Shown piece after piece: positions 2,507 to 26,954 of a DNA stretch of 64,000 bases (within the stretch, counting starts at the first letter, position 1; each line of letters begins with the position of its first letter). Both the position numbers and the translations under genes were made by a program. Source of the stretch: Magnolia sinica. Taxonomy: Eukaryota > Streptophyta > Magnoliopsida > Magnoliales > Magnoliaceae. The DNA is taken from assembly GCF_029962835.1 (NCBI RefSeq), contig NC_080588.1, positions 18,184,001 through 18,248,000 of the forward strand. The letters run 5' to 3'. The notes under the pieces are model-generated. The model ran no database searches and was not told where the DNA came from. It saw only the letters and a program-made list of their open reading frames with translations.

Positions 2507-2515
2507 TTATTTATT
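2507..2515. repeat. Left 9-bp target-site duplication of the giant MULE
   Basis: TTATTTATT lies directly before the first base of the left terminal inverted repeat. The identical 9 bases follow the right terminal repeat at 26946-26954 in direct orientation. Nine base pairs is the length characteristic of Mutator-superfamily insertions. Confidence 0.9.
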
Positions 2516-2660
2516 GAGAAATTTAGGACTATGGACCCCACCTTTTGGCCAGTTGTTTTTATGAAAGAAAACAAACCTTCTTTTGCAACTTAGACCTGCA
2601 CGTGTGGATTATGAATTTCAGGATGAAAGTACCCCTCCTTTTCACTGCTGTTTTTCTTCT
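2516..2660 (+). repeat. Left terminal inverted repeat of the MULE
   Basis: Matches the minus strand of 26800-26945. Shared blocks include TGGACCCCACCTTTT, TTTTTATGAAAGAA, ACAAACCTTCTTTTGCAAC and TTAGACCTGCACGTG. Weaker similarity continues to about 2710. Confidence 0.88.
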
Positions 2661-2877
2661 CCCTTTCAACTGTTTCCTTTTCCTTTCTCTTTCCACTACT
2701 ACTTCACTGCCTTTGCTTTCACCCCTTTTCTTCGCCCGGTTAGAAAGACAAAAAAACCCTTTTTATGGGCCCCCTTATCAACATTTGTCTTCTTCTGAAA
2801 ATGGTCGGTCCAGCGAAGAAAGCACGTAACATAGGTATTTTTAAACTCAGTTGGGCCCACATTAAATGTATGGGTAT
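2660..2877. other. MULE subterminal region, no gene
   Basis: Pyrimidine-rich sequence runs to about 2740. Then comes a copy of the start of the array-flanking module (GGGCCCACATTAAATGTATG, 2854-2873) that is interrupted by the next element. Confidence 0.5.
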
Positions 2878-3566
2878 AGGAAATGGATTGGCTACTCCTC
2901 CGGTGCTTTGTGGGCCCCACTATGGTGTACGTGGCTGGTGGTCGGTGCTCTTTGGCCCCACCATGGTGTACGTGGTTGGTGGTTGGTGCTCTTTGGCCCC
3001 ACCATGGTGTACGTGACTGATGGTCGTTGCTCTGTGGGTCCCACCATGGTGTACGTGGTTTGTGGTCGGTGCTCTGTGGGCCCCACCATGGTGTATGTGT
3101 TTCATCCATTCCGTTCATCCATTTTGTCCGCTCAATTTTCATCTAATGTAAGGGGCTGAGCCCCAAATTAGATGGAAATTTGGCTGATGGCCCGCTAGAG
3201 GAAAATAATGGTGATTGGATATCGATCATTTAAATCCTCCTGAGGCCCACTGTACTGTTTTTCTGAAATCCAATCTGTTTTTTAGGTGATAAAGACCCAG
3301 ATGAAGGCTAAAAACATAGATCATCTTGACCCAATACTTTTATGGCCCCCCAAAAAGTTTTTAATGGTCAATGTTCATTAAACACTATTTCCTATAATGT
3401 GGTCCAATTGAGATCAGGATATACCTTAATTTTTGTATAATATGATAAAATAATATATAAAAATAGATGGATGACATCGATGAAACACATACATCATGAT
3501 GGGGCCCACAGAGCACCGAACACCAGCCATTGGTTGGTGGCAGGGGGAGTAGCCAATCTGTTTCCT
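2878..3566. mobile_element. Hairpin MITE nested in the MULE (GTGGGNCCCACCATGATGTATGTG family)
   Basis: The ends mirror each other: AGGAAATGGATTGGCTACTCC at 2878-2898 against GGAGTAGCCAATCTGTTTCCT at 3546-3566. Internal to them are the family landmarks GTGTTTCATCC at the left and GGATGACATCGATGAAACAC at the right. The interrupted host sequence (..CACATTAAATGTATG / GTAGTATATCCACG..) is found uninterrupted at about 5640-5680 and 6750-6780, which shows this is an insertion. A related full copy lies at about 40150-40690. Non-coding. I could not fix a target duplication, so the superfamily is open. Confidence 0.7.
2913..3090. repeat. Five tandem copies of a 41-42-bp piece of the MITE arm
   Basis: GGCCCCACCATGGTGTACGTG-type units start at about 2913, 2954, 2995, 3037 and 3079. 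The related MITE at 40150 has only one such unit, so this is a local expansion of the left arm. Confidence 0.85.
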
Positions 3567-3679
3567 GTAGTATATCCACGTCGTCTATCCATTTTTCCAT
3601 CTAATTTAAGGGGTTGAGCCCCAAATTGAAGCATATCAAAATATTAAGTGAATCATACCATGGGAAACAGTAGGCATAA
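3567..3679. other. Array-flanking module, copy 1
   Basis: GTAGTATATCCACG followed by a conserved stretch with TTGAGCCCCAAATTGAAGC and CATAATGATTTTC. The same module precedes the arrays at 5632 and, shortened, at 6744. Confidence 0.7.
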
Positions 3680-4145
3680 TGATTTTCCAGTTTGCCCTAC
3701 TGATTTCATGTTTCCCCGCTCAATTTCATGTTTGTCCTGCTCAATTTCATGCTTGCCCTACTCATTTCCGTGTTTGCCCCACTCAATTTCATGTTTCCCC
3801 CGCTCAATTTCATGTTTGCCCTGCTCAATTTCATGCATGCCCTGCTTATTTCCTAGTATGACCCACTCAATTTCATGGTTGCCCCGCTCATTTCCTAGTT
3901 TACCCTGCTCAATTTCATGGTTGCCCCACTCATTTCCTAGTTTGCCCCGCTCAATTTCATGCTTGCCCCCGCTCATTTCCTAGTTTGCCCCGTTCAACTT
4001 CATGTTTGCCCCACTCAATTTCATGCCTTCCCCGCTCAATTTCTAGTTTGCCCCACTCAATTTCATGTTTCCCCTGCTCAATTTCATGTTTGCCCCACTA
4101 ATTCTCTAGTTTGCCCCCACTCAATTTCATGTTTGTCCCCGCTCA
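3680..4145 (+). repeat. 21-bp tandem array A (left MULE subterminal), block 1
   Basis: About 21 steps of TTGCCCCGCTCAATTTCATG alternating with a variant ending CATTTCCTAG. The exact 21-bp step gives ORFs with 7-residue periods on both strands; these are artefacts. The same monomer recurs at 5757-6178, 6775-7300 and 7535-7680, and inverted at 25076-26330. Confidence 0.9.
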
Positions 4146-5631
4146 AAACCTAAATGTATTCTCAAATCCCTAAACCTAAACCTTAACTTATTCTCAATTC
4201 CCTAAACCTTAACCTATAATCTAGCTTAAACCTAAACCTATATTGTACACTTGTAACCTAAAACCTAAATGTATTCTTAAATCCCTAAACCTAAACCTTA
4301 ACCTATTCTCAATTCCCTAAACTTCAACCTATAACCTAACTTAAACATAAACCTGTAACCTATACTTATAACCTAAAACTTAAATGTATTCTCAAATACC
4401 TAAACCTAAACCTACACCTAATCCTAATCTCAACTCCTTAACCTAAACCTAAATTTGAAAATCCAAACCTAAACCTGGTCTCGAACTCGATTTCTTAAAC
4501 CTAAACCTTAACCTATTATCAGTTCCCTAAGGGCCCGTTTGGCCAGTTGGATTGGAAGGGATTGAATGGTATTGGAAGGGATTGGAAGTCAAATTGGGTG
4601 ATCTGATCCCGGGATATAGCAATCCCATGGATCTTAAGACAATTCACTGACAACACCATCATTACCTTTAAATCCCATCCAATCCACCCTAGTCCTTTCA
4701 AATTTGGGTGGGACATGTTTGGTTTGAGGGATTGGAAGGGATGAGAAGGTTTAATCCCAGGATTGGCCGGGCGTGCGAAACAGACTGGATATAACAATCC
4801 AGGGATATAGCAATCCCATGGATCTCTAGACAACCCACCGACAACACCATCATTACCTAGAAATCCATGCCATCCACCCTAATACCATTCAATCCCTTCC
4901 AATCCGCCTGGCTCAACGGGCCCTAAACCTTAAGTTATAACCTAACTTAAACCTAAACCTATAACCGACACTTATAACCTAAACTTAAACCTGTAACCTA
5001 AATGTATTCTCAAATCTGTAAACCTAAACCTGCACCTAATCCTAGTCTCAACTCCTTAACCTAAATTTAAACCCGGTCCCGAACCTGATTTCCTAAACCT
5101 AAACCTTAACCTATTCTCAGTTCCCTAAACCTTAACCCATAACCTAACTTAAACCTATACCTATAACCGACACTTATAACCTAAACCTAAACCTATAACC
5201 TAAATGTATTCTCAAATCCCTAAACCTAAACCTACACCTAATCCTAAACCTAAACCTAAACTTAAAAACCCAAACCTAAACCCGGTCCTGAACCCGATTT
5301 TCTAAACCTAAACCTTAACCTATTCTCAGTTCCCTAAACCTTAACCATAACCTAACTTAAACCTATACCTCTAACCGACACTTATAACCTAAACTTAAAC
5401 CTGTAACCTAAATGTATTCTCAAATCCCTAAACCTAAACCTACACCTAATCCTAATCTCAACTCCTTAACCTAACCTTAAACTTGAAAACCCAAACCTAA
5501 ACCCAGTCCCGAACCCAATTTCTTAAACCTAAACCTTAACCTATTCTCAGTTCCTTAACCCTTAACCCATAACCTAACTTAAACCTAAACCTATAACCTA
5601 CACTTATAACCTAAACCTATAACCTACACTT
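4146..5631. repeat. Telomere-like CCTAAA satellite, block 1
   Basis: Degenerate CCTAAACCTAAACCTTAACC repeats, close to the plant telomere unit CCCTAAA. The landmark TAAATGTATTCTCAAAT starts at 4151, 4266 and 4381 (115-bp unit) and at 4999, 5201 and 5409 (about 205-bp unit, with an extra CACCTAATCCTAATCTCAA module). A MITE interrupts it at 4531-4923. This is an organised interstitial satellite rather than a chromosome end. Confidence 0.85.
4531..4923. mobile_element. Tourist-like (PIF/Harbinger) MITE in the telomere-like satellite
   Basis: Termini are inverted: GGGCCCGTTTGGCCAGTTGG at the left, and GGGCCCGTTGAGCCAGGCGG reading in from the right. The next bases, ATTGGAAGGGATTGAATGG, are shared by both. 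A 3-bp duplication TAA (4528-4530 and 4924-4926) flanks it, as for Tourist elements. Non-coding, 393 bp. The interior contains the same segment twice (about 4612-4706 and 4802-4890, both with GGGATATAGCAATCCCATGG), so it looks like an internally duplicated or dimeric form. Confidence 0.85.
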
Positions 5632-5756: not shown

Positions 5757-6178
5757 GATTTTCTAGTTTGCCCCGCTGATTTCATGTTTCCCCTGCTCAA
5801 TTTCATGTTTGCCCTGCTGATTTTATAGTTTGCCCCACTGATTTCATGTTTTCCCCTCTCAATTTCATGTTTGCCTCGTTCAATTTCATGTTTTCCCTGC
5901 TCAATTTCATGCTTGCCCTGCTCATTTCCTAGTTTGCCCTGCTCAATTTCATATTTGCCCCGCTCATTTCCTAGTTTGCTCCACTCAATTTCATGCTTTG
6001 CCCGCTCATTTCCTAGTTTGCTTAGCTCAATTTCATGCTTGCCCCGCTCATTTCCTAGTTTGCCCCATTCAACTTCATGTTTGCCCTGCTCAATTTCTAG
6101 TTTGCCCCACTCAATTTCATGTCTCCCTCGCTGATTCTCTAATTTGCCCCCACTCAATTTCATGTTTGCCCCGCTCAA
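5757..6178 (+). repeat. 21-bp tandem array A, block 2
   Basis: Same TTGCCCCGCTCAATTTCATG monomer and orientation as block 1, followed directly by telomere-like satellite, as in block 1. Confidence 0.9.
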
Positions 6179-6743
6179 AACCTAAACCTAAACCTAAACC
6201 TAAAACCTAAATGTATTCTCAAATCCCTAAACCTAAACCTTAACCTATTCTCAATTCCCTAAACTTTAACCTATAACCTAACTTAAACCTAAACCTATAA
6301 CCTACACTTATAACCTAAAACTTAAATGTATTCTCAAATCCCTAAACCTAAACCTAAACCTAATCCTAATCTCAATTCCTTAATCTAAACTTAAACTTGA
6401 AAATCCAAAACTAAACCCGGTCCTGAACCTGATTTCCTAAACCTTAACCTATTATCAGTTCCCTAAACCTTAACCTATAGCCTAACTTAAACCTAAACCT
6501 ATAACCGGTACTAATAACCTAAACTTAAACCTGTAACTTAAATGTATTCTCAAATTCCTAAACATAAACCTACACCTAATTCTAATCTCAACTCCTTAAC
6601 CTAAACTTGAAAACCCAAACCTAAACCCGGTCTCGAACCTGATTTCCTAAACCTAAACCTTAACCCATTCTCAGTTCCCTAACCCTTAACCCATAACCTA
6701 ACTTAAACCTAAACCTATAATCTACACTTATAACCTACACTTA
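6179..6743. repeat. Telomere-like CCTAAA satellite, block 2
   Basis: The TAAATGTATTCTCAAA landmark is at 6208, 6323 and 6539, giving steps of 115 and 216 bp. It has the same two unit sizes as block 1. Confidence 0.85.
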
Positions 6744-7300
6744 GATGGGCCCACATTAAATGTATGTAGTATATCCCGCTCAATTTCATGTTTGCCCCAC
6801 TCAATTTCATGCTTGCCCCGCTCATTTCTGTGTTTGCCACGCTTAATTTCATGTTTCCCTCGCTCAATTTCATGTTTGCCCCGCTCAATTTCATGTTTGC
6901 CCCGCTCAATTTTATGCTTGCCCCGCTCAATTTCATGACTGCCCCGCTCATTTCCTAGTTTGCCCCGCTTAATTTCATGCTTGCCCTGCTCATTTCCTAG
7001 TTTACCTTGCTCAATTTCATGCTTGCCCTGCTCATTTCCTAGTTTCCCCCGCTCAATTTCATGCTTGCCCCCCTGATTTTCTAGTTTGCCCCGCTCAATC
7101 TCATGTTTGCCCCACTGATTTTTCAGGTTGCCCCGCTGATTTTTTAGTTTGCCTCGCTGAATTCATAGTTTGCTCCGCTGAATTTCATGTTTGCCCCGCT
7201 AATTTTCTATTTTTCCCTACACAATTTCGTGTTTGCCCCGCTGAGTTTCTAGTTTGCCCCGCTCAATTTCTAGTTTGCCCCGCTCAATTTCATGTTTGCC
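6744..7300 (+). repeat. Array-flanking module copy 3 and 21-bp tandem array A, block 3
   Basis: GATGGGCCCACATTAAATG and TATGTAGTATATCC (6746-6776) lead into about 25 21-bp steps, which become more divergent towards 7300. No telomere-like satellite follows. Confidence 0.88.
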
Positions 7301-7818: not shown

Positions 7819-10800
7819 GCGACGAATATTCTGCCATAATCCCCAACCCAACATGTAGGTGTTCACTCACATGGTGGTTTGACAAGGTGAAGGGTGGAGT
7901 GGATAAGCACGATAGTCGTCTAAATTTGTTTAGGCAATCTCCTTTCTCGTTTCTATTGCATGTTACAACCTTTAGATTTTTAGGGGCTCTATTTCACCTT
8001 CTTTTTGTAAGATACAAAGGTGATCTAGTATTTGAGATCAATGGGAGGCAATTGCACTTTACCGAGATGGACTTCGCCTTCATTACCGGTCTTAAGATTG
8101 GAGATCTAACTGTATCGAAGAATCGTTGCAGTACGGGTTCATTAAGAGACAAATACTTCAAAGAATATCCAGTATTAAAGAAGCAACTAATGGAGGTGTT
8201 TCAGAGATTAGTTGACACCAATGAGCATGAGGACATCGTGTAGGTTGCCCTACTTCTAGTTGTAGAGCACTTTCTTAGGGGAACTGAACCGAAAACCATG
8301 TGCAACATGGATTATATTTACCTAGTTGACTTGCTAGATGATTTCTATATGTATCCCTAGGGTAGTTTGGGATACTATACAATGTCGCAAGGAATTGAAT
8401 CTGTTGTTGCTGCATCAAGTTCCCCTTGGTACACTGTATGTGGTTGTGTCCTTCCTCTACAAGTAAGAACACCTTTTACTTTATATATGTTTTCCCTCTA
8501 TAGTCAATTATGGATTTTTAACCTGGTGCAATTTCATTCTAACAGGTATGGGCAGTAGAGATATTACCGGCCCTACAAGACTGCGTTATTTCGTATGTTC
8601 CGCATCAAATTCCACGCTTCATTTAATATCAAGGCTGGAAGGGTTGGAGGTATAACAGAATACATGCTATTTTCGAGAGTAAAGTTATAAGTTTATATAT
8701 ATATCCCCATCATTTACTTTGCTTAACTTGACATATATGCTTTTTTATTTAACATTACTCTTTGTTCTTTTGCAGACAACAGTAGTAATGAAATTAGAAC
8801 CAACGCTACGAGAATGGGAAACGGATGTCATTCGCTCTGTGCGTGACAGTTTCTAGGTGAGATGTTACGAAAAATGAACTATAATTTCATGTCTGCCACT
8901 GTAAAGTTATCCTTACTCTTACATATCCATCTATATATTTTTGTAGCTTACTGAGACCTAGGAAGATGATGAGGAGGGTAATGAGATTGATCACGAGGGG
9001 GGTGACGAGTCAGATGATAGCGATGAGAAAGGCGAGGAGGGAGAGTGACCGAGGGGTGGTAGACCGAATGTTGTTCTTATGGAGGAATTTATGATTTAGA
9101 GGGAAGAGTTGAAGAAAGAGAGAGAGGAATTGAAAAATGAGAGGGACAAATTGAGAAAAGAGAGGGCAGAGATGAGAAGGAAAGAAGCATTGTTTGATGA
9201 CAGGAAGACGTTACTGAGGAGGGAGAAGGAATTGTTCTTTCTGGACAAGGAATGGTTCTTCAAGGACAAAGAAAAGTTAACAAATGAGATGGAGGAGTTT
9301 AATAAGGAGAAGGAAGGTAGTCGTACACAGAGGGGACATAATGTGATGGAGGAGGAGGGTGAGGAGTTGAGGAAGGGAGTGGAAGTAAATGATATTGAAG
9401 ATAAAGAACTTGGACATGTGGATCTTGATGTGCAATCGTATAGTAATGTCAAAGGTAATTTATGGAATGAATCCACTTCTCATGCCGTTTATGAAAGGAG
9501 AGCCAAAAGGATACTGAAGTCGTCATATTATAAGATTTCTCCATACTTGTCCTTGTCTGCATTCGATACAAGCCTTGAGGCAGACAAGAAAAAGTTAGCG
9601 AATGAGAGGGATGAGTTTAATAAGGAGAAGGAAGGTAGTCCTAAATAGAGGGGGCAGTTTGTGATGGAGGAGGAGGGTGAGGAGTTGAGGAATAGAGTGG
9701 AAGTAAATGATATTGAAGATAAAGAACTTGAACATGCATCCACTTCTCCTCCTGTTTATGAAAGGAGAACCAAAAGGATACCAAAGCCGTCATATTACAA
9801 GGTTTCTCCATACTTGTCCTTGTCTGCATTCAATACAACCCCTAGGGTGGTTCGTGAACCGAGCAAGTAACAGCTTTTGCTACTTCTCTGATACCATTTC
9901 TTGTATAGATGGATCTTTTCAGGATACTATCCGCACAGGAGGTGAAAAAGGCAGAGGACTGGTATGAAGCAAACAAGGACATGTCAGAGGAAAAATGGTT
10001 CAGAACGATATGGATGAATGATGCCTGGGTTGATAGCAAGGTAAGCATTACTAATTTATTCTCTATATGCATCGATTGCCATGTAATTAATTGTTATATG
10101 AATATATGACGAAATTGTACTATCATATTGTTTAGGCTATCGACACATACATCGACTTCCTTGAGAAAAGGCATAACGCCCTCTCAATAGCATATCCTCA
10201 GGATTGCAAGTTCTGTTCTACATATTTTATGGTAAATGTTTATTATGGCAATCCTTAATTTGTTTGAAAACTTTATTTTATCACATGTATTGAACTTTGA
10301 TTATGTTTGTAATAGCAAAGCCTCGAGGGGTGTTTGCCGGTTTTGATCGCATACCGGGCCTCCAATTCAGCATTAGAACGGTCATCGCTAATAGGCCAGC
10401 TGATCACGGCCTACGCAATTGCTAGGTAGCGAGATAAACCATATGCCAGGGCAATTTGGTGTTATGAACGGGTAATGCACTTGTCACAGAACATCATCTC
10501 TTACTGTTATATGTTCTATCATGTTTTGACAAATATATTATTTTGTGAATCATGGACAGGTTTATACACCAATAAATCATGACAATTCACATTGGTTTTT
10601 ACTTGTCATCTATCCTAGAGAAAGAGAAATCATTATTGTGGATAGCTTATACACATATCTAACACCGAAGTTCAAGCATAAGATGAAGAATATGACCGAT
10701 GCACTCCCCGTTCTCTTCCATGCCACTGGAGACAGTACTGCGCTTGAAGGGAAGAAGTGGACCGTCAGATTCGATGAATTCTCGCCGAAGCAGGACAATG

Positions 10801-10898
10801 GTTATGACTGCGGCATATTCGTGATGAAATTCATTGACATTTTATATAGCGATCTCACCTTGGAGGGAATAGACATGCAAAAATTCACCTCCGATTAG
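7819..10898 (+). pseudogene. ULP-like cysteine protease gene with DUF1985 (MULE cargo), decayed
   Basis: Predicted exons with GT..AG borders, approximately: 7819-8462, 8546-8649, 8776-8856, 8947-9850, 9909-10040, 10136-10231, 10316-10471 and 10560-10898. The first exon reads as a DUF1985 domain (WWFDKVKGGVDKHDSRLNL, then FAFITGLKIGDL). The fourth is acidic and lysine/glutamate-rich with a long coiled coil. The last is the C48 (ULP1/SENP) peptidase core: His in NHDNSHW, Asp in IIVDSLY, Gln in PKQDNGYDCG, and Cys in the same DCG motif, so the catalytic residues are all present. Members of this family cleave SUMO or SUMO-like conjugates; this copy's substrate is unknown. The frame is broken by TAG at 8241-8243 and 8358-8360, and by further stops in exons 2 and 3. 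ULP-like genes fused to DUF1985 are typical MULE cargo, which fits its place here. Exon borders are by eye. Confidence 0.8.
9297..9840 (+). repeat. 317-bp tandem duplication in the ULP-like gene
   Basis: The segment from GTTTAATAAGGAGAAGGAAG at 9297 recurs at 9614, including the stretches encoding EEEGEEL, VEVNDIEDKEL and YERR.KRI.KSSYYKISPYL. The two copies differ mainly by a 50-odd-base deletion in the second. It repeats the coiled-coil tail of the protein. Confidence 0.85.
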
Positions 10899-13353
10899 AG
10901 GAAGTCAATGGCATATGATTGCTTGTCTGTAGTCAGGAGGTGATATTTGTGCAGTGTAAGGGAGAAATTTTTGTAAGAATGTATTATTCAAAGATTTACA
11001 GTAATCTTGGAGTGCTGAAAATTTCCAAGAATGTGCATTTCATTGCGAGTTCCTTCTCTAATCACGATAGTCTTGGTAGGGTTAATCCGAATTCCTCTCA
11101 AGTCTATTGTGATTAGAGAAAGAACTCGCACTGAAATGCATATACTTGAAAATTTTCTATATACTCACCGGAAGTGCAAGTTTCGATGTATAGCATACTC
11201 TGTAATTTTAGTGAATGATGAAATGAACTTTATACTATCCCACAATATTTTCAGTTTGTCTCAATATGCTCGTCGATCAAGTACAATGCACATGGAACTC
11301 GATGCTTGGCAATTGCTCTAGATCAAGTTCAATGTCTCGATATTATACATTGTATGAATTTTATGCACAATGACGTAACCACTGTAGGGCACTTCCTACT
11401 CTTTTTTACTGCAATGGGGTGATTTTTAAAGGGAGGTCAGGGATGTTTGTGTTTTCTCTAGGCCATGTTTGGAAACTATGGGTTCATGCCAAACTGCAGC
11501 AGGAGAAACTAGGTGAGTATTATATGGGGAATATTAAAATTGAAACCTATATGATCATTGTGCTCATTCTTCCAATGCACCCAAGTGGAATTGTATGATC
11601 CTTGTATCCATTTACTCTTAGTTGGATGCTTTTATTCACTTTTGAGATGGGACAAGGGGTTGTCATTCAATCCCATAGACACATGACAAGGGTGCAGGGG
11701 ATTAGGCCTCAGGCTATAGGCTATATCAGTTCTCTGAGTAACCCCTTGGAACTAGCCTATCAAGACCTTTATCAGGACCTGTGCAAATGATGCTCTCCCC
11801 AGAGGTATCCTCGGTAATATGATCTTTGCCAGATATTCATAGAAATTGATGGATTGCACCATACCAACTTTTGAAGCACTGCTTTCCATATAGAAAGTGT
11901 TTTTGGAAGTGCAAGAGCTGGAACCCGTGTCATGCACATTGGTCCCGCACCTTGCTGAAAGTGGGGTCCTCGATGTATTTTTCTTTTAATGCCTCAATTC
12001 CAACAACCTCTATGGTAAGTCTCCCCAATAGCAGCACCCTAATACTCAAAGTGTCTGCTACTTTGTTTCGTATTTCAGCTATATAATGCAAAAGAAATTA
12101 TGCTATTGTAAAAATGATGTCCACTTTGCATAGTGAGCACTTGTCTTTTGTTGTGAGTTGAAATATCTCAATGACTCGTGATCCTAATAGAGAAAACTTT
12201 GCAATGAATCAAGTATTGCCTTCAATGTTGTAGCGCCTAGACCACTCAGTAGAACTTAATATCATATATGGAGTAGGTACATGCTTCATTAAACTTCTAA
12301 TTAAAGGAAGCAATCAGCTTAAACCTTCCTTTGTCATAATAGTTCTGAAATTTCGAATAGATCGCTAGTGAAATGTCACCAAGCAATGAAAAGAATGGAC
12401 CTTCTAAAGGGTTTGAGGCATGGGCCACTCTACTAGGCCCAAATTTTCTCCTAGTCTACCTTGATCCCTTCATTTAACCCAAAACAAAACACCAAGGACA
12501 AGGAAAGAGCACATGTTTAACTTAATATATGGTGGCATCTTCTGTGGTACATCAAATACTTGTTGTAAATAATTAAGGTCAAGAAATAATCAAGGACTGA
12601 AAGCAAGAATGTCATTAAATAAACATCGTAAGAAGTTCTTCATGAAAGGATGAAATGCCTGTCATTAGTGTTAGCACACATGGGTTGGGTTGACCTAGTG
12701 GGTCATTGGATCCAACTCAACAGCTAGTGGGTTTGGACCTAAAATTTAGACCCAAGGGGTGGGTATTGTATCCAAAAGTACAACCAGATTACTAAATAGG
12801 TTGGGCCCGGGTCCTAAAAATCAATGTGACTCGAACCGTCTAAGACCTAGTTTCAAATGGGTCTGATTTGGGTCATACTAAAATGGACCTAACCTAGATC
12901 TAAACCAAACCCGATCCATCCTTGACCTAAGAAAAAAGGAGTAACTAAGTACGTATGCTTTTTCCCCTTCTTCTTTTGGGCTAGACTATGGCAATAGTTA
13001 GCCACCTATTTCTAAATCGTGGTTACCCATCCATTACTAGTAATAGTTTGGACTGTTGTGAATCATGAGCCCCATCGTTGATGGAGAATATCCAAAAAAT
13101 TACACTAATTTAACTACCCTAACCATTTGATGTTACTTATTGAACTTGGACATTCGAACATTTTATTATTTACCATAAAAATTGATAGTCACCACTAATT
13201 GGATGGTTTGTTTGGAACATTATTTGTATGAAAATTGGTTTGTAATTTCTATCCCTAGCTAGACCCAAACTAGACCTGACTTGAACTTGACCTATGTAAT
13301 AAACGGGCTGGTTCAAGCATAAGAACTCACCTAAATTGTTGGAGTAATCAACT
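10899..13353. other. Non-coding interior of the MULE
   Basis: No gene is recognisable apart from the separately listed hairpin at 11017-11157. 12665-12940 is rich in GGGTTGG/GACCTA words (TGGGTTGGGTTGACC, GGTTTGGACC) and ends near 13330 with mirror-like CCAAACTAGACCTGAC. This resembles the subterminal composition of small hAT-type elements, but I found no ends. Short open frames at 11602-11790 and 11871-12086 match nothing I know. Confidence 0.4.
11017..11157. repeat. 141-bp near-perfect hairpin
   Basis: The arms are reverse complements about an axis at 11087: 11017-11068 (GAAAATTTCCAAG...TTCTCTAATCACGAT) pairs with 11106-11157 (ATTGTGATTAGAGAA...CTTGAAAATTTTC) with few mismatches. The inner part (AGTCTTGGTAGG / CCTCTCAAGTCT) also pairs, leaving a tiny loop. 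It lies 119 bp past the ULP-like stop codon. It could be a tiny MITE or a miRNA-like foldback; I see no duplication at the ends that decides. Confidence 0.8.
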
Positions 13354-15119: not shown

Positions 15120-16085
15120 AAATAGCGGATGTATATCGATATTGCATTGTATATTGATATCTCGACACAATGTCGGTATATCAATAGCAGAAGACATGTC
15201 GATATATCGACATCTTATGGATAATATCGAATTATATCCTCATTTGTCCAGCGACTAAACTCAAAAAATCCATATTTAATCAATATATCGACAACATGTC
15301 GATATATCGATACCAGATGACATGTCGATATATTGACATCTTGTGGATAATATCGAATTATGTCCTCATTTGTCCAGTGACCAAACCCAAAAAATTCATA
15401 TTTAATTGATATATCAACAATATGTCGATATATCGATAGCAGATGACACGTCGATATATCAACATCTTGTAGATAATATCGAATTATGTCCTCATTTGTC
15501 TAGCGAGCAAACCCAAAAATTCCATATTTAATCGATATATTGAGAATTTATAGATCATATCAATATAAGTGATGATACATTGACGATATGTCGTTGATAT
15601 CTACGAATTTAACAACTAGAAACCTACGGTCGATGTTATCGATATATCGTCGTTATGATGCACGTAAGTTGTAGATATGATCAACATATCACAGATATAA
15701 TTGACGTAAGTTGTCGATAATATCGATGAGGTATCGATAATATTGACTCTGGAGTGCAAATGTGTAGCGAAGTTTTGATCCATTTTCATAATATGTCGAT
15801 ATATTGACATCTTATAGATATATCTATTGTAGATTTATTGCCACTTATCGATATATCGACAGATTGTCGATAATATCGAATTACATCTGAATGTATCCAG
15901 TAATAAAACACCAAGAATTTCATTTTTACTCGATATATCGACATATTCTAGATACCATCAACAGCATATTGTCGATATATCGACTAGTGGTCGATAATAT
16001 CAATTAAAGAACTAAACTCTCCAGTGCTCTAACCGTTGAAATTCTGATAGTGTCGATATATTAATAACTTGTCGATATTATCGAC
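15120..16085. repeat. Palindrome-rich tandem repeat, 126-bp unit
   Basis: CCTCATTTGTCCAG recurs at 15238, 15364 and 15490, an exact 126-bp step. Each unit carries several copies of TGTCGATATATCGACA (a perfect 16-bp palindrome) or close variants, plus GATAATATCGAATTA. After about 15540 the units decay, but ATATCGA words continue to 16085. Non-coding. Confidence 0.85.
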
Positions 16086-17719: not shown

Positions 17720-19012
17720 ATGCATAAGGATAAAGGAAAAAAGGTCATGGTTGGAGAGTCATCCAAGGGAGATCGTACCAAACTCCATTCAAGACGTAGA
17801 TCGGAACGGGCAGAGGAACGGACTTCCCCGATCGAATCGCCGGCTAGGCGAGCTCGTACTTAAAGGAGCACTCCAATTTAGGATCTGCCTCCACCAATAC
17901 AACTAAAACAATTGATCCCACAGGTTCCTCCTCCCCCTGCGAACATGTATGACAAATATCGCGTTCGAAAAATAGTATATGAGAAAAAAGTCGATCGAGC
18001 ATGCATCCAGCAATTTGGGATTTCACAGATTTTGGAGAATGTTTGGTGGAGTAACCTGTTAGATTTTGGAGGGACAGTTAGAAATGAGCAAGTGATCATA
18101 TTTCTATCATACAGTCACTCGCCGATAATGCACCCTGCTTCATTTCAGGTGACCATTGGAGAGACAACCACCACCATTGATACTGGGGTGGCTGCACAGC
18201 TTTTAGGGATTTCAGCCATAGGTCGAGGCTTAACGGATCACGACATTGATGACACAGCTGTGCGGCTAGAAACGACGAAGTATTTTTATAAAGGACAGAA
18301 TGTTCCTTGGCATAAGGGTAATGCACTGAGAGCAACGCACCTGGAAGATAAGTACAAGGTGCTACACAGTATCTTCACCTGGAATGTTTATCCGAGGGAC
18401 TCGAACAAGTCTGACATTACTTTGTATATGTTAGATATTCTATACAGCATCTGTCATGGTATTTGTCTGTGTTTGCCCACCATCATTACTCAAATAATTA
18501 CTGACAGCATAATAACCACGAGAAGGGATGCCATTCCATTCCCACACCTATTCTGTTTACTCTCCCGTCATGTTGGCCTGATGCTCACCACTGACCAACC
18601 CAGACCTGTGAAAATGTTTATACAAAACAACATCAAGCACATGAAACTGGGGTTGAAAGGGGCTTCGACATCAGTAAGGCGCAGTGAAGATTTTATGAGA
18701 GAGACATAAGCAGAGGCAGCAGAGATGGATGAGGCTGAGATAGAGGCAGCCGACACTGACTATCATATAGAGGGAGAGCAGCCACGATCCTCGTATGGTC
18801 ATACTAGTCGAAGGATACCATACCGTAACTGCAGGGCATACATTGTCAGGCACATGGATGAGCAGGACAGGCGACTCACGCGACTGGAGTGGCTTTCTAA
18901 GCCCATCCAGAAGGGTATGGAACGGGTCGTGCATAAGATTGACACCCTTATTGCCATAATCACCTGCTGGCGTGATGATGTCGCTCCACCGGATGGCGAT
19001 CCGTCCAGCTAG
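17720..19012 (+). pseudogene. PF20167-type plant transposon protein, copy 1
   Basis: One frame from ATG at 17720 to TAG at 19010-19012, 430 codons, broken by TAA 17861-17863, TAG 17879-17881 and TAA 18707-18709. The N-terminus is basic and low-complexity (RSERAEERTSP). The core from about residue 70 has the family hallmark GNALRATHLEDKYKVLHSIF followed by TWNVYP, then LDILYSICHGICLCLP and an IPFPHLFCLL segment. The C-terminus is acidic with a helical RHMDEQDRRLTRLEWL stretch. The domain corresponds to the putative plant transposon protein domain (PF20167), whose function is not known. The same family occurs at 52355-63522 in a Sirevirus-like setting; here no copia sequence or polypurine tract lies next to it, so it may be MULE cargo. 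An untranslated leader exon near 16.2 kb is possible. Confidence 0.7.
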
Positions 19013-21422
19013 ACTGCATTTAATCATGTTTGTTGGCTTGTGTATCAAGTATCTTTTTCGGATGCCAAGCCTATCGGATATTATTATCGAACTGTTTCTT
19101 TAAATAGTGGCGTTAATTTTACTTTGACTGATGCAGGGGACTATGTTTTTAGTGCCTAAACTTAGGGTACTTATTTTGATTATAGTATTTGGTGTTATGA
19201 TGAAATTTATTTATGCACTTCCTCTGGACTGTAGATGGACTCAAGAATCTCAACCATGCCATTCACCTTTATCAAAGAATTCATTGTTCATAAACTATGC
19301 CCTCAATCCTCTGCCACACCTGATTGCCACTCTTATATTAATCTGCCCATTCGACAAAACTGAAAAAAGAACTCAGCCCAGCCTTAAGTTTACTATAGCT
19401 CGCCATCTAAATTCTTTTTTGGTGAACCATGTTTCCCATGGCCTCACCATGCCCCCTTCAAACTATTTATCTTTGACAACAACCAAGTGTGATTATAAAT
19501 GAACTTCCTCGCCAACATTGCATCTTCACCTCATGACTTTTGTGATTATAGTACGTGGTGTTATGAATTTGTTGTCTTCTTGGCAATTTTATATGTTTTC
19601 TCATGATATGTGAACTTGCTGCATTTGATGCCATTTGGATGCTTATTATCTTCTGGCTCTGATTAATTCCAGTCAAGTTTTGGATAGTTATCAATGTGCA
19701 TAATGAAGTGCATATATGATTTCTTTCCCTGAATTTGGTAAAGATTCAACTTGTTCATTTCCCTTACATATTTTATATTTTTATTGTACAATGAGAAATT
19801 TCAAATTTGGATCTGATCACAACAAGATTACTTGATACATGTTATATCTCCTGTTCATGCTCTCGATCTCTTCTCAGCAGTAGACAAATTACCCATCCAG
19901 GAACCCTACTACCGAATCAGTTACAGGTTTGCTTGCTTTCATGGTCTAGGAATGCCGATTATAGTATTTTATTCTCCATTAGGAATGCCGATTAATGCAT
20001 CATCAACAACAACGGTAGCAGCAACAATGGTGAGCTTCAAAACCCTCTTCCCTTCCCCTCCTACTAACATGCGCCTCAGGTGCATTGATGTTTTGGTTAT
20101 CTCTCATTTTTCTCTTAGCAAGGTATTTCCTTTTTTTTTTTGTATTTTTTTTTTTAAATTTTTCATAAGGATAGAGCTATTTTGGGTTTCTGTTCTTTTG
20201 TCATGGGTGTGCAAGTAATGGGCATTTTTTCTTTGCCTTGTTATTATTATTTTAAAATTTTTTGGAGGTAGGAGGGTAGAGTTGTTTTGGGTGTGTCTTA
20301 ATTTGTCTTGGTTTGGCTTGTTTTGGTTTGAATTTGATTCATACAGGTTATTGTATGTTGTCATCAATGTTTTGGTATCTCTCATATTTTTCTTTTGGTA
20401 AGTTATTTCCCTTTTTTTTAAAATTTTTTAAATTGTGAAAAGGACAGCGTTGTTTTGGCCTTTTGGGTTCTGTTATTTTATCATGGATGTGGAAATCTGG
20501 CATGTGTGTGGCATGAAAACTGTCCTATAGGGTCACATCCCCACTATGAAATAGGATGCCTTAAAAGACAGACCAATCCAATTAGCCACACCATAGAGAA
20601 CAATGGACAATTGCCCAAAAACCTTCAAATTCATGTGGGGCCATTCAATAGTTGTACTGGCTAGGTATTTAAAGGTGTCCTGTTATAATAGTGGGGTGAC
20701 CCATTGGAGGATGGGTTATAGTTGCAATCACCTCATTGGCATTTCCATCACCCATCCAAACTGTTCATCAGGGCTAGTGAACTCTCCAAGGCTTCCTTGA
20801 AAAATTAGACTAATTGATGATTTATATAGAACAAGTGACATAACTTCATGGATGATCATGATCAAAAGAAATCATGCAGGAAAGCTGGATCTAAGGCAAA
20901 ATTAGCCTAAACCCGAACTATAACTTCAACATGGAATTGATCCTTCTATCTGTTATAAGCGATTCATTGAAGTAGTAATTTGGTATCCTACTATATATCA
21001 GAGGCATTTTCTTTAAAGCCATGTAATATGTTCCTTCCTGATTATCTATACTCCACATTAGCAAATGATTTCAGATAATCTTTATGTTAATCGTGCATTC
21101 TGATGCAATAATATGCATAATGATTGTACTGAATGATACAATGTGGCATAGAGTGATGCTATTATGTTGTGCTTCGTGAAGTTCTATTAGGTGTTGCTCC
21201 ACCACCACACCCATCGCAAACATGTATGCTAATTAGGACCATTGATCTGGTCGGATGCCTTGCTGATGGGGCACTCGGGACCTAATTTGAATCTATCTGT
21301 AGGTATGAAGGAGGCCCCATTTATCTGTTGTTATAAATGTAGTTTCCTAGTTGCTTCTCAATGTGAAATTGTTAAGTTGGATTAGTTCTTGAAAACTTTT
21401 AATCGAATTTTTTTTTCCAAAG
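19013..21422. other. Non-coding MULE interior with unassigned fragments
   Basis: T-rich sequence (T tracts near 20130, 20150 and 20410). The open stretches 19131-19502 and 19832-20218 match nothing I recognise. TTTTTTTTCCAAAG just before 21423 is a good splice acceptor for the captured kinesin exon. Confidence 0.4.
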
Positions 21423-21501
21423 TTGAGCCAGTGATCAAATCTGTCTTTGATGGTTACAGTGCTTGCATCTTCGCATACGGACAGACAGGCACCGGAAAAT
21501 C
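21423..21501 (+). pseudogene. Captured kinesin motor-domain exon fragment
   Basis: After a polypyrimidine/AG acceptor the frame reads VEPVIKSVFDGYSACIFAYG then QTGTGKS. AYGQTGTGK is the nucleotide-binding P-loop of kinesin motors, and the preceding VFDGY..CIFAYG is equally typical, closest in my judgement to kinesin-14. Similarity stops right after the P-loop, where a GT donor (CGGTGGAA) may lie. Kinesins move along microtubules using ATP; this 26-residue remnant cannot. It sits within 300 bp of LRR and helicase fragments, so it is one tile of a gene-capture mosaic. Confidence 0.8.
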
Positions 21502-21655
21502 GGTGGAAAGGTGTGGTTGCCCATCAATGAGAACTAAATGGTTTATTTGAACTTTCAATTAAGTTCATCCAATTGGTTTGTGGAATCCCTAGCTAATAAG
21601 AGCGTAAGAAATCTTCTAATTGGATTAATGATTTGTTCTTGCTTTTAACATATGT

Positions 21656-21718
21656 ATGGATAGCAATGGGCTAAGTGGTGAGATTCCTTTAACATGTTCT
21701 AATGTGAGAAACATGAAG
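21656..21718 (+). pseudogene. Captured leucine-rich-repeat fragment (LRR kinase-like)
   Basis: The frame reads MDSNGLSGEIPLTCSNVRNM, one plant extracellular LRR (L-S-G-x-I-P core) of the spacing used in LRR receptor-like kinases. It ends at a stop soon after, where a 58-bp repeat begins. Too short to name the parent gene. Confidence 0.5.
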
Positions 21719-21768
21719 ATCAACTAGGAGCAATACATAACTTTCAATTGTATGTATCATACAAAGTA
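21711..21768 (+). repeat. 58-bp direct repeat, left copy
   Basis: ACATGAAGATCAACTAGGAG... is repeated at 22419-22476 with two mismatches in 58. The two copies bracket the captured helicase exons. Confidence 0.9.
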
Positions 21769-22318
21769 TGAGGAGACACACTCACAGGTAAAGCATATGC
21801 ATGATTTCTTCTTGATTGGTGATGACAAATTTTTTAAGATGGGTGGCTCAACCTATTCAGTTGCTTTTTCCATAAATATTTCAATGTGGACTGTGACTCA
21901 AATCAGACAGACACATTTAGTTGCCCCTCTTGACATGCATTTTTCAGAACTATGTAGCATTCTCATAAAGCATATATCAGAGGATATTAACCATAAGGTA
22001 TACATCATTACTTCGTAACAGTTACCGGAATCAATTTTACTCCTCTTGCCAAGATTCTTCAGTCCACAACCTCTGGTTTATACCAGTCGAAGTTAATTGC
22101 AGTTTCTTGTCTTTTGTACTACTGCAATGGTCACAAGACTAGTTGCTAACCTTTTTTCCGAGTTGAACTTGAATGTGCGGGAGATCCATTATAGAAAGCC
22201 GCAAAGTTATAGAACCAGGGTTAGAGATGAGTTCCGGAAGTCAAAAGGTCTTATTCTTGTGACTTCTGATGTATTTTCACGCAGTGTTGATTATCCAAAT
22301 GTCACCCTTGTTATGCAG
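21769..22318 (+). pseudogene. Captured DEAD-box RNA helicase exons
   Basis: Three pieces in gene order: EETHSQ ending at a GT donor (21787/21788); exon 21907-21997 reading QTHLVAPLDMHFSELCSIL and HISEDINHK, ending AAG/GTATAC; and exon 22103-22318, bounded by TTGCAG and CAG/GTAATA, reading VFCTTAMVTRLVANL, SELNLNVREIHYRKPQSYRT, DEFRKSKGLILVTSDV and VDYPNVTLV. This is helicase core domain 2 of a plant DEAD-box ATP-dependent RNA helicase, nearest to the RH26/RH31 type. Motif V is damaged (SRSVDYP where ARGVDYP is expected). The introns are kept, so the copy came from genomic DNA and not from mRNA. The last exon is a fully open 72 codons, suggesting a fairly recent capture. Confidence 0.88.
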
Positions 22319-22418
22319 GTAATATAGTGGATAATTTCTTTTTATAATACAAGGGGGCATTATGGAATGCATGTATAGATAGGGCTGACAATTGGTGCAT
22401 TTTTACACGATATGATAT

Positions 22419-22476: not shown

Positions 22477-22494
22477 CATAAATTATACGATATG

Positions 22495-24894
22495 CTACAC
22501 ACCGGGTATCAGAAACTTGCACGAGCGGCGATTATGCCCGATTTGTTTGCAACGCCCACACTTTACTGTTTTCGATTCCTCTCCACGCGGTGGAATTCTA
22601 AGCTTTTTGGGTCTTCCAGCTGACCTCCTCTGTCTTAGGGGTTTAATCTGCACACAATACTCCATCCCCGCTAAAATTTTCTACTCGCTATTGTCGCGAA
22701 CTGGATACACTGATTCGCTATGCGTGGCCAGGTAATTATGCACCGTGTAGAATGGGGAGCAGTATAAGTAGTGATCCAGATTGTAGTTTATGCAGGCTGA
22801 CGGGACATGCATGCAAGGGTACCCCTTTATGTCAAACTCACGACATGTACATGAAAACTTACTGAGCTTCACCGTATCGTTATAATCTCTAACGACATAG
22901 TACTCATCTCGAGAAATAGCATGGCAGCGAACATCTCGCGCCTTCTGCATGATATCCTTTAACTGTTTCTCTGCCCATGTTGTCGATGGACCCACAAATG
23001 ATGCCGCCGATTCTTGTCTCTTGTAAAACAATTCCTGTATCTTCAGTATTACAGCCTCTATCAATTTCGTAATAAGGTATTCGCGTGCTTCTTTGAAAAG
23101 GGCATTAACGCACTCAGAAATGTTCATCGTGACTAAGTTGAATCTTCTTCCTGGAAAGTGCGAAGATGCCCATCTCTCGTACCCGATTTCTATTATCCAT
23201 GCATGTACTGGGGGATTGGTTATTTCGATATCATGCATTATTTTTTCAAATTCAGCCCTCCTGCAAGTCTTCACAGCCATCCAGTAATACATCTCCAACG
23301 ACTTGTCCTTAAAAGTGTCCACCAAGTTTCTGTAGATGTGGTATGCATAATACGCATGGATCGCACATGGGAAGACTTAGGGAACCTTTTTCATTAGACT
23401 TTTATGTCGGTCGGATATAATGACAAGACCCTTCACAGACCCTAACACATTGTTAAGGTGGGTAAGAAACCAATTCCAACTACTGCTGTTCTCTGATTCT
23501 CCGATGCCAAACGCAAGTGGAAATATATGATTGTCCCCATCTAAGGTTACGACGATGAATAGCACACCCTTGTATTTGCCCTTTAAGTGTGTCCCGTTAA
23601 AAGCCAATACCCTCCGCAATGATTTCTAAAAACTTCGTATGCATTGTCCGAGAGCTAGAAAACATCTCTTGAACCTCCAAGTTTGTTGGTTTACAGAAAC
23701 GGCAGTAACTGTCCCTGGGTTGGCCCTCCTCAACTCATGCAAATACAAAGGGAGTTGATTGTAGGAGTCTTCGTAAGACCCCATCACGTGATTAATTGCA
23801 AGCTTGCTAGCTTTCCATGCCTTCCAATAACTGTTACGAATATTATATTTCTCTTGCATGGCGAAGATAATGTCAATTGGCCTCAACCCTAGGCGTTGTT
23901 CAATGCGGCTAATAACCAGATCACACGCTAGCTTACTATTGGCTTGCCGGTGATCGCTCTTCATCCATGACATGCCGCACGTGTGTTTTAATTCATAAGT
24001 CTGTATTTTGAATATACTTGTATCATTCTCCCGAGATGCATGAACCCTCCATTCGCATGCATCTTCGAAGCACACCACAGTAAATCTCCTAGAATTTAAG
24101 TATATTACTCTATACTGGAAATTATTCCGAATTACAAACTGACTCAAAACATACTGGCACCAACTCTTGTCCTTAAACGTTTGCCCAGCAGCTATATCAG
24201 TCAGTTCACATAACAAATCAGTATATTCCAACATTTTTGCATTGGTGAATGCATCATCATCAAATGGCGGAAAAACTTGACGAGTCATAAGGTTTGATGT
24301 GTCGGGAAGGTCTCGAAGTGGAATGTCGCTTACACGCACAGATGAGATGGTGGATGATGATGGCAGATCTGCTGTTGATGCTAATGGCGGTGTCTTGTAT
24401 TCATAATTACTTTTAATGTTAACTGCACCACTGACTTGCGTAGTCACGATGTTTAATGTTTGCAGCGGCTCGGGTAATTGATCATTGCTTACTACCACTT
24501 GTAGTGGAGAGGGATTGTATTTAAATTCCACGCCATACTCATCAGCCACACTGTCCACGTATGTTGTGGTATTGATGTGTTGGATTGTTTCGATGACTAA
24601 CAGGATGAATTTATCCGAATTCTTAAACTGGTAAGACAAGAACTCTTTGACGTCATCGTCATCTTCGATTTCAATTAGAGGTATTGATTCGTTAGTGCAA
24701 GGATTCAATATTTTCATCCTAATATCACAATCTTCTGGTCTGCTCTTAATAATCTTGTAAATTCTAGATCGAAGCTCCTCGTATGTAGTCTCGAGACATA
24801 GCGTCATTTATTTTAATGTTCCACCCGTGTACGAGTATCGCTTGTTTTCAAATTCTAACTCCCCGCCAGAAGAGCACATGATTCTTGTAGCCAT
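22495..24894 (-). pseudogene. mudrA-like MULE transposase, nearly intact
   Basis: A single 800-codon frame from ATG at 24892-24894 to TAG at 22495-22497, with no frameshift and four nonsense codons (24808-24810, 23626-23628, 23377-23379, 22681-22683). Order of domains: N-terminal PB1-like block (about residues 30-90), MuDR DNA-binding region (about 220-340, with HTCGMSWMKSDHRQA), MULE DDE core, SWIM zinc finger C682-x-C684..C694-x-H696, and a CCHC knuckle C779, C782, H787, C792 after a GRPKK-type basic stretch. In the core the first catalytic residue is changed: FNGTHLKGKYKG has Asn433 where DGTHLKG is the rule. Asp495 (SDRHKS) and Glu594 (ISECVN) remain. The enzyme would cut and join the MULE ends in the nucleus; this copy should be dead. 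It points towards the element interior, 2 kb from the right terminus, as is common. Confidence 0.9.
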
Positions 24895-25075
24895 TATCTG
24901 AAAACTAATACAATGACACATTATCAGTGAATCATAAATCAATGGAACCATGCCATATGACAAAACTCAATTAAATAATGAAGGACTTTCGTTGTTAACA
25001 AATAGTTTCAAGTGGTGCTTGTTTAATTTTGTGACGCTATCTATCATGCCATTGAGCGAGGGAGACATTATCAGT
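24895..25075. other. Upstream region of the transposase
   Basis: Short AT-rich spacer between the transposase start and array A'. It would hold the transposase promoter; I cannot point to a specific element. Confidence 0.4.
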
Positions 25076-26330
25076 TTGAGCGGAGCACATGAAATTCAGC
25101 AGGGCAACCTGAAATTTGAGCAGGTCAAAATAGAAATTCAGCGGGAGTAACCTAAAATTGAGCTGGGCAAACTAGGAAATGAGCGGGGTAAGCATAAAAT
25201 TGAGCAGGGTAAATATGAAATTGAGCGGGGCAAACTAGGAAATGAGTGGGCCAAGCATGAAATTAAGCGGGGCAAACTAGGAAATGAGCGGGGTAAGCAT
25301 TAAATTGAGCGGGGCAAGCATGAAATTAAGTGGGGCAAACTAGGAAATGAGCGGGACAAGCATGAAATTGAGCATGGCAAACTAGGAAATGAGCGGGGCA
25401 AGCATGGAATTGAGCAGGCCAAACTAGGAAATGAGCGGGGTAAGCATGAAATTGAGCAGGACAAACATGAAATTGAGCGGGCCAAACTAGGAAATGAGCG
25501 AGGCAAGCATGAAATTGAGCGGGCCAAACTAAGAAATGAGCGGGGCAAGCATGAAATTGAGTGGGGCAAACATGAAATTGAGTGGGGCAAATTAGGAATT
25601 GAGCGGGCCAAGCATGAAATTGAGCGGGGCAAACTAGGAAATGAGCGGGGCGGCATAAAATTGAGCAGGGCAAACTAGGAAATGAGCGGGGCAAACTAGG
25701 AATTGAGTGGGGCAAGCATGAAATTGAGCGGGGCAAACATGAAATTGAGTGAGGCAAACACGAAAATGAGCGGGGCAAACAATATTTTGAGCGAGCATAT
25801 CGTGATATTGAATTGGCCAAACATTTCTTCGAGCAAGCATAGCATGATATTAAGCGGGGCAAACATTAAATTAAGTGAGCATTGCATGGATATTGAATGA
25901 GCAAACTGTAAATTGAACGAGCATAGGATAATATTGAGCTAGGCAAATAGTAGATTGAGCAATCCTAGCATTATATTTATCTCTGCAAACATTAAATTGA
26001 CCTTATCTACCATAAAATTAAGCTGGGCAAACATTACATTAAGCGATCCTAGCATGAAATTTATCGCAGTAAACATTAAATTGACCTTATCTACCATGAA
26101 ATTAAACTGGGCAAACATTAAATTGAGCAATCCTAGCATGAAATTTATCGCAGCAAACACTACATTGACCTTATCTACCATGAAATTAAGCTGGGCAAAC
26201 ATTAAATTGACCTTATCTACCATTAAATTAAGCTGGGCAAACATTAAATTGAGTGATCCTAGCATGAAATTGAGCAGGGTAAACATGGAATTCAGCGAGT
26301 GTAGCATCAGATCAAGTGAGCCGTAACATA
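25076..26330 (-). repeat. 21-bp tandem array A' (right MULE subterminal, inverted)
   Basis: About 55-60 steps of GGGGCAAACATGAAATTGAGC and GGGGCAAACTAGGAAATGAGC, the exact reverse complement of the array A monomers at 3.7-7.3 kb. The steps are regular to about 25780, then drift. 25960-26270 is a late variant with a longer unit containing ATTAAATTGACCTTATCTACC. The long ORFs on both strands are repeat artefacts. Together with array A this forms a mirror-image subterminal arrangement. Confidence 0.9.
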
Positions 26331-26799
26331 GAATTGGGTGTGCTTCAAATTGAATTGAGCAAGTTTGACATGGATTCAATCGATCAACACATAAAATTAA
26401 TTAAGCCTAACGCATGAAATTGACTAAGCCTAACACAAGGAATTGACTAAACTTTGCATGCAATGCCATTGTACGAGTGTAGCTTTTGTTTTTAAAGATC
26501 TATAACTCTAACTGCCGCAGTACCGGTCAAATGCACGTTGAAGAGAGGTGCTTTGGAGTGAGGGAATATTTTGAACCTTTTCAAGGAAATGCAACCACTT
26601 TGTTGGATTTCACCTAACCCTAGCTAAGATGAAATATGGAAAATGTAGAATAACGATATCTAGATGGATATCTAGATGCTTTACAGAGATTTCAGTCACG
26701 AAAATGAGAAGAAAACCCTCCGTACTTCACTTCTCCGTTCGAAGAGAGTGTACTTGTTTTTTTCATTAAGGAGAGTGAAAGCAATGCTGAAAAGCAGCA
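26331..26799. other. MULE right subterminal region, no gene
   Basis: Decayed GAATTGACTAAGCC-like steps run to about 26460, then unique sequence. Nothing coding. Confidence 0.5.
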
Positions 26800-26945
26800 G
26801 CAGTGAAAAGAGTATGCAAAAGGAAGGGGTATTTTCATCCTGAAATTCGTAATCCGCACGTGCAGGTCTAAGTTGCAAAAGAAGGTTTGTCTTCTTTCAT
26901 AAAAACAGCGGGCTAAAAGGTGGGGTCCACAGTCCTAAATGTCTC
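26800..26945 (-). repeat. Right terminal inverted repeat of the MULE
   Basis: Reverse complement matches 2516-2660. The terminal bases are ..AGTCCTAAATGTCTC. Confidence 0.88.
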
Positions 26946-26954
26946 TTATTTATT
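26946..26954. repeat. Right 9-bp target-site duplication of the giant MULE
   Basis: TTATTTATT, identical to 2507-2515. Confidence 0.9.

Follow-up and report, generated by a model that had tools for sequence, protein, structure and literature searches.

A 24,430-bp element in the genome of Magnolia sinica was found to be a broken member of a family of giant Mutator-like elements (MULEs) with long terminal inverted repeats (TIRs). It was located in a window of 64,000 nucleotides, C16:18184001-18248000, and its relatives were sought in the 1.84 Gb of the genome. It was almost certain that the whole unit between both TIRs was inserted with a 9-bp target duplication and belonged to this giant TIR-type family. 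The ends of the element were as follows.

2507-2515, plus strand: left 9-bp target site duplication, TTATTTATT, from the window sequence
2516-2645, plus strand: left TIR of about 130 bp; genome-wide matches mostly started at 2516 or a few bases from it
26816-26945, minus strand: right TIR, from the TIR comparison and the right-end genome search
26946-26954, plus strand: right 9-bp target site duplication, TTATTTATT, from the window sequence

The original prediction had described a single large MULE with inverted ends of about 130 bp and an exact, direct 9-bp duplication adjoining both of them, and this description held. The two TIRs were identical as ungapped reverse complements at 111 of their outermost 120 bp, and TTATTTATT was present in direct orientation on both flanks, abutting the TIRs at 2516 and 26945. 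Measured from TIR tip to TIR tip, the element had the length given above. MULE transposase domains and the 9-bp target duplication assigned it to the Mutator superfamily, and the long TIRs placed it among the TIR-MULEs rather than with the VANDAL and Kaonashi elements, in which long TIRs are absent.

The genome search with the left end scored 40 of 1651 candidates, and the search with the right end scored 40 of 1282 and gave 41 matches; facing pairs were obtained by joining the two match lists within 60 kb. From 40 left-end and 41 right-end matches we obtained 15 facing pairs, 15.7-49.7 kb apart. Their lengths were 15,699, 19,887, 22,269, 22,934, 23,741, 24,173, 24,430 and 25,851 bp for the shorter ones, and 28,826, 29,662, 32,518, 36,299, 43,277, 46,935 and 49,699 bp for the longer ones. 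The duplication was exact in 12 pairs, matched at 8/9 in two and at 7/9 in one; the window element and the copies C6a and C1b accounted for three of the exact cases, and the remaining 12 pairs for nine exact cases and all of the imperfect ones. Thus, the search for further end pairs with 9-bp duplications that had been suggested as a check did recover such copies. Since 12 of the 15 paired elements showed an exact duplication abutting the TIR, the pairing was not a matter of chance. Of the 40 left ends, 25 were left unpaired by the list of 41 right-end matches, as would be expected from the scoring of just 40 places on each side.

For six of the left-end copies the sequence was read for 30 kb inward, and the reading was extended to about 37 kb in C1b and to about 39 kb in C5b. 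C6a and C1b were colinear with the window element and about 86-94% identical to it, segment by segment. C6a was 22,269 bp long, with about 87-92% identity in long alignment blocks, and differed in the satellite blocks and at window positions 11860-14298. C1b, at 36,299 bp, was the same element with three inserts of about 6, 4 and 6 kb. The outer ends of C5b were 49,699 bp apart and had an exact 9-bp duplication; its interior was complex, parts of the TIR being matched at 5154 and 18506 of the copy as read. The element on C10 had two candidate right ends (29,662 or 25,166 bp), and the outer one was used for the list of pairs. Three shorter relatives, C5a (10,850 bp, exact duplication), C3a (14,772 bp) and C1a (8,054 bp), were left out of the 15 pairs, their right ends being absent among the 41 right-end matches. 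They looked like non-autonomous relatives because they kept the ends and satellites, and the DNA enclosed by these gave no long match to the genes.

A paralogous empty site was located upstream of the element, at a distance of about 4 kb, where the joined window flanks with one copy of the duplication aligned without a break. The alignment (L031 7295-6708, opposite strand) had 83.6% identity over 604 aligned columns and ran across the junction; the single target copy could not be read exactly, owing to small indels in the A/T-rich target. Empty sites for C6a, C5a and C3a were sought in the DNA of the examined loci and none were found. The same DNA gave five listed spanning matches for C1b, all of low identity (69-76%).

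Two genes of the family were recognized in the window element.

22681-24807, minus strand: mudrA-like transposase, a single frame of 708 codons interrupted by 2 stops
7821-10946, plus strand: DUF1985 - coiled coil - Ulp1 (C48) gene, eight exons modelled by eye, with 10 internal in-frame stops; its 5' end was not set by the model

The mudrA-like transposase that had been read from the sequence was supported by Pfam matches to MULE (E 1.4e-14), DBD_Tnp_Mut (E 1.2e-11) and SWIM (E 1e-4), all in one minus-strand frame. The transposase genes of the window element, C6a and C1b contained 2, 3 and 5 internal stops, respectively, none of them common to any two copies in an ungapped alignment. All three were therefore broken and did not have the intact transposase open reading frame (ORF) of an autonomous MULE. 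The position that we take to be the first catalytic Asp was Asn in the window and unchanged in C6a and C1b. A genome search with the transposase scored 40 of 668 candidates, which were 83-100% identical, and among these 40 places a match fell in 11 of the 15 pairs. An intact copy would supply the transposase in trans for cut-and-paste movement.

DUF1985 and Peptidase_C48 were both found by Pfam in the second gene, in the same frame and order, in keeping with the ULP-like/DUF1985 gene of the original prediction. The His, Asp, Gln and Cys that we presume to be expected of a C48 protease were readable in the ULP exon. The genome search for the ULP part scored 40 of 515 candidates (87-100% identical) and gave a match in 8 of the 15 pairs. 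Matches to both genes within 40 kb of each other were present at 18 loci, and the two genes were convergent in all 18. The DUF1985-ULP gene was thus a gene of the family and not the cargo that it had been proposed to be.

In a protein search that scored the 7994 candidates sharing most words, the closest database relative of this gene was P0001, an M. sinica protein of 802 amino acids with 61% identity over 58% of the query. It had DUF1985 followed by C48, the same layout as in the window gene, and both therefore combined DUF1985 and Ulp1 in one gene as the Kaonashi-type KIU does. The DUF1985 part retrieved two M. sinica proteins only. An AlphaFold2 model of P0001, with the second protein (P0002) as the sole other row, had a mean predicted local distance difference test score (pLDDT) of 39.5. 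Genes with DUF1985 were very numerous in M. sinica: the survey gave 9626 first-look candidates genome-wide, of which 55 were scored. Among the matches listed, 29 of 50 places had no stop in about 216 codons; the count left out 5 shorter partial rows and the 29 included the place of P0001 itself. Only this wider family suggests a long-term constraint. We also observed that the ULP part of P0001 was unmatched at some DUF1985 loci among the matches listed; such loci would parallel the difference between VANC, which has no Ulp1, and KIU, which has it. A separate observation concerned P0002 (LOC131242759 isoform X3), in which PHD, SWIB and Plus-3, a set that we take to be NERD-like, were joined to DUF1985 and a coiled coil. 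This protein may be a host-transposon fusion, a MULE capture or a gene-model error.

The tandem arrays of the element were arranged around these two genes.

2901-3099, plus strand: 41-bp subterminal tandem repeat, from the tandem-repeat scan
3703-4146, plus strand: 21-bp satellite, left block 1, TTTGCCCCGCTCAATTTCATG type
4145-4476, plus strand: telomere-like CCTAAA array
4922-5626, plus strand: telomere-like CCTAAA array
5766-6178, plus strand: 21-bp satellite, left block 2
6178-6743, plus strand: telomere-like array
6775-7300, plus strand: 21-bp satellite, left block 3, situated upstream of the gene for DUF1985-ULP
25045-26307, minus strand: 21-bp satellite, right array in reverse orientation, upstream of the transposase

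The four blocks of 21-bp satellite and the telomere-like satellite noted earlier were thus located within the element, with CCTAAA arrays between the left 21-bp blocks and with 21-bp arrays upstream of both convergent genes. A search with the 21-bp unit itself delimited the blocks as 3710-4111, 5787-6144 and 6770-7274 on the plus strand and 25045-26263 on the minus strand. The unit was present at all of the 20 right-end loci examined, where 20-38 units lay internal to the TIR in a single sense and none in the other, and at 8 of 8 left-end loci; each of these two sets included the end of the window element itself. In the six elements read at both ends, the left arrays were in plus and the right arrays in minus orientation, as mirror images, and the three short relatives had one additional plus block near the right end. 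The first units began about 0.3-1.2 kb inside the tips. Outside the element, L047 had 27 units and two other loci had one unit each. Unit positions T2, T3, T11, A13 and T15 were kept in at least 90% of cases on both sides; this was no proof of a motif, since the units were chosen by their similarity to the consensus. The satellites belonged to the plan of the family as subterminal components and were not collected cargo. Captured cargo was ruled out by their recurrence at all 28 end loci examined, and the idea of the element as a container that collects satellites was not borne out.

The decay of the copies was followed in a three-way alignment of the window element, C6a and C1b (10.4-10.5 kb), with the state of the other two copies taken as ancestral. 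Each copy had about 3% derived changes (2.7-3.4%). Derived C-to-T changes affected 11-16% of CG, 7-11% of CHG and 3-4% of CHH sites, and A-to-G changes 0.6-0.9%. Such a pattern, as expected of methylated DNA, would be the trace of long CG and CHG methylation. Against C6a and C1b, the ratio of nonsynonymous to synonymous substitution (dN/dS) was compared with a neutral simulation that used the observed mutation spectrum and gave medians of 0.44-0.55. The transposase had values of 0.46-0.49 (null median 0.50), the ULP exon 0.22 and 0.29 (null median 0.44; P 0.07 and 0.18), and the coiled coil 0.41 and 0.32, within the null. No constraint was visible for DUF1985 (0.70 and 1.35) or for the ORF with a Transposase_32 match, TP32 (0.66 and 1.05); against C1b these two were in the upper tail of the null, at its 97th and 98th percentiles. 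Comparisons with C5b, outside the simulation, gave 0.36-0.83. We rejected selection inferred from dN/dS, because neutral simulation with methylation-type mutation accounted for the values. The simulated neutral dN/dS covered the observed transposase values, and there was no detectable selection after the large copies parted.

Systems that counter silencing are known from related elements. According to the available sections of PMC5735166, DUF1985 is present in VANC proteins, whose binding motifs are located in tandem repeats within the noncoding DNA of VANDAL elements. More generally, in the parts available of three sources (PMC5735166, PMC10398659, PMC13317346), a VANC or Kaonashi protein binds tandem repeats in the noncoding DNA of its element and lifts methylation; VANC genes bearing Ulp1 are the Kaonashi type in the accessible text of PMC13317346. 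The anti-silencing by VANC was demonstrated in Arabidopsis and, in the same partial accounts, Ulp1-bearing forms are discussed for eudicots. By analogy, the DUF1985-ULP protein of Magnolia would act like the VANC and Kaonashi proteins of Arabidopsis: it would bind the subterminal tandem arrays upstream of both genes and remove DNA methylation, and copies that were silenced would then decay through C-to-T change. This reading was proposed because the architecture matches VANC and Kaonashi and the methylation-type decay fits. We considered that the whole explanation, a giant TIR-MULE family with anti-silencing by an array-binding DUF1985-ULP protein, could equally well be right or wrong, and the anti-silencing role through array binding was put forward tentatively, as a proposal somewhat more apt to fail than to hold. 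It was unlikely, in our estimate, that the broader version would hold, in which VANC/KIU-type anti-silencing extends beyond eudicots to a magnoliid TIR-MULE, the 21-bp arrays are bound, spread at more than 20 kb is thereby enabled and P0002 represents DUF1985 joined to a PHD-SWIB-Plus3 host protein.

Several results weighed against the proposal. VANDAL and Kaonashi elements have no TIRs and the Magnolia family does, and DUF287 was not found in P0001, which thus differs from the VANC combination of DUF1985 with DUF287. The genomic place of P0001 (C9:1033143-1034060, 99% identity) contained one in-frame TAG in the coiled-coil stretch (residues 319-624), perhaps at an exon border or perhaps a true break, and therefore P0001 may not be fully intact. 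Significant constraint was present in no gene of the recent large copies under the neutral simulation, and the tandem arrays may be without a protein partner. Among the 40 places scored with each gene, 4 of the 15 pairs had no transposase match and 7 had no ULP match; of the three shorter relatives, C1a had no exact duplication and C3a matched at just 8/9.

The strongest rival, to which we gave slightly less than an even prospect, was an ordinary giant MULE in which the satellites were neutral products of slippage or gap repair, the ULP gene was a passenger or a SUMO protease only, and no anti-silencing took place. The lack of a significant selection signal in recent copies agreed with it, as did the grape elements Mutavine-18 (16.2 kb, with a ULP region) and Mutavine-1 (17.7 kb), for which the available part of PMC2528002 gives no such role. 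However, it did not readily account for arrays of a single unit in a single sense at all 28 end loci, nor for a gene that retained the order of DUF1985 and C48 and 61% protein identity to P0001. It was improbable that the arrays were instead sites of transposase binding or end pairing for the synapsis of a very long element: their mirror-image arrangement and their start at about 0.3-1.2 kb from the tips would suit such a role, but they begin hundreds of base pairs inside the TIR, upstream of two genes, and the TIR is generally regarded as the binding site of plant MULE transposases. Finally, the chance pairing of ends from two different elements around unrelated cargo had next to no probability, since the left ends without a listed partner were outweighed by the perfect 9-bp duplication, the 15 pairs and the empty site, and it was refuted by colinear full copies having their own duplications.

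Besides its own genes and arrays, the element contained the following features.

21404-22330, plus strand: captured host exon cluster, with kinesin motor (21404-21502), leucine-rich repeat (LRR)-like piece (about 21574-21721) and Helicase_C (22088-22318)
17882-18709, plus strand: ORF of 275 amino acids with a PF20167 (Transposase_32) match below the cut-off
11860-14298, plus strand: 2.44-kb stretch with weak matches to RRM and DUF4283, occupying the site of a 1.3-kb segment of the family
15156-15540, inside the element: 126-bp tandem repeat, ATATCGA-rich, about three units, from the tandem-repeat scan

Kinesin, LRR and helicase exons had been claimed; the kinesin (E 2.9e-8) and Helicase_C (E 1.8e-9) matches were above the Pfam cut-off, while the LRR-like piece, known from reading the sequence, had no Pfam match. 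A genome search with the cluster (window 21404-22330, 927 bp) scored 40 of 56 candidates. Nearly the whole cluster was found at 14 places, 256-927 at 4, 366-927 at one, 590-927 at one and about 601-894, the helicase part alone, at 8, and some version was present in 14 of the 15 paired elements. Further places were partial: C1:123526893 and C3:3109467 (5-341, 83-86%), C18:18064669 (2-229), C5:99292235 (2-144) and C18:19394948 (160-340). C7:19508666 matched the kinesin exon alone (8-96) at 90%, and the LRR-like stretch had five matches on C12 at 75-77% identity, all within 11.0-13.5 Mb; these places on C7 and C12 were plausible candidate donors or relatives of donors. The graded versions suggest either stepwise capture or stepwise loss. 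The host exons would have entered by capture, perhaps stepwise with the helicase piece first, and a nested Helitron might have been their carrier.

The PF20167-type gene of the original prediction corresponded to an ORF with such a match, at a score (31.4 bits) below the cut-off of 45. The RRM relic was similarly reduced to a weak match (E 0.006), accompanied by DUF4283 (E 0.029), both below cut-off and both within 11860-14298. This stretch had no counterpart at that site in C6a, C1b or C5b, which had a common 1.3-kb segment there, shortened by deletions in C1b and C5b. The RRM was therefore ruled out as cargo of the family. The pair of weak matches is reminiscent of ORF1 of a long interspersed nuclear element (LINE), and the stretch may include a remnant of one. 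The "other transposons" said to lie inside the window copy were not demonstrated, since beyond PF20167 and the weak DUF4283 match there was just RT_RNaseH, far below cut-off. Matches to Ycf1 were read by us as probably falling in translated satellite.

Beside the element, a different 21-bp satellite of TTCACGGTCATTTCCATGCAT type formed a palindrome of about 3.3 kb (window 1-1857 and L031 7595-9000), with plus orientation from -1405 to 527, minus from 591 to 1857 and inverted arms 78-84% identical. It looks like a foldback element, and one arm flanking it received the MULE.

The literature search found no publication on such elements in Magnolia. What makes the family of interest is that the anti-silencing reading can be tested and that elements of such a size still moved. 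A magnoliid family with such a gene, arrays near its ends and many decaying copies would make the co-evolution of protein and target testable in another lineage; for eudicots, a paper in the EMBO J reportedly treats how anti-silencing systems co-evolve. In addition, the family shows that a cut-and-paste element can exceed 20 kb and still reach many sites, and graded versions of a host exon cluster are carried in it.

Among the closest known systems were large MuDR-like TIR families of grape. The accessible part of PMC2528002 (Table 4) gives Mutavine-1 a TIR of 70 bp and a length of 17.7 kb, and Mutavine-18 a TIR of 230-263 bp, a length of 16.2 kb and, like the Magnolia family, a ULP region; ULP-bearing MULEs were thus already known, as had been stated. 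In contrast, Magnolia copies with few inserts were 22.3 and 24.4 kb long, with pairs up to 49.7 kb, and subterminal satellites recur in Magnolia whereas none are reported for grape in that part of PMC2528002. Host exon fragments are carried as in Pack-MULEs, which need a transposase in trans and of which none in the first set exceeded 7 kb, according to the available text of PMC6431247; the Magnolia family differs in having its own transposase gene, and it was accordingly not a Pack-MULE, that is, a non-autonomous element with gene fragments. The ULP gene of Kaonashi is in reverse orientation to mudrA (PMC2528002, available part), as in Magnolia, and the Ulp1-bearing VANC-type gene is a further likeness to KIU; however, Kaonashi is non-TIR and the Magnolia family has TIRs. 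VANDAL21 and VANDAL6 with their VANC genes, as far as the accessible sources describe them, share with it a DUF1985 protein and noncoding DNA that contains tandem repeats, but they are non-TIR elements and VANC has DUF287. The Magnolia family also differs from the VANC and Kaonashi systems in being large and in having a magnoliid host.

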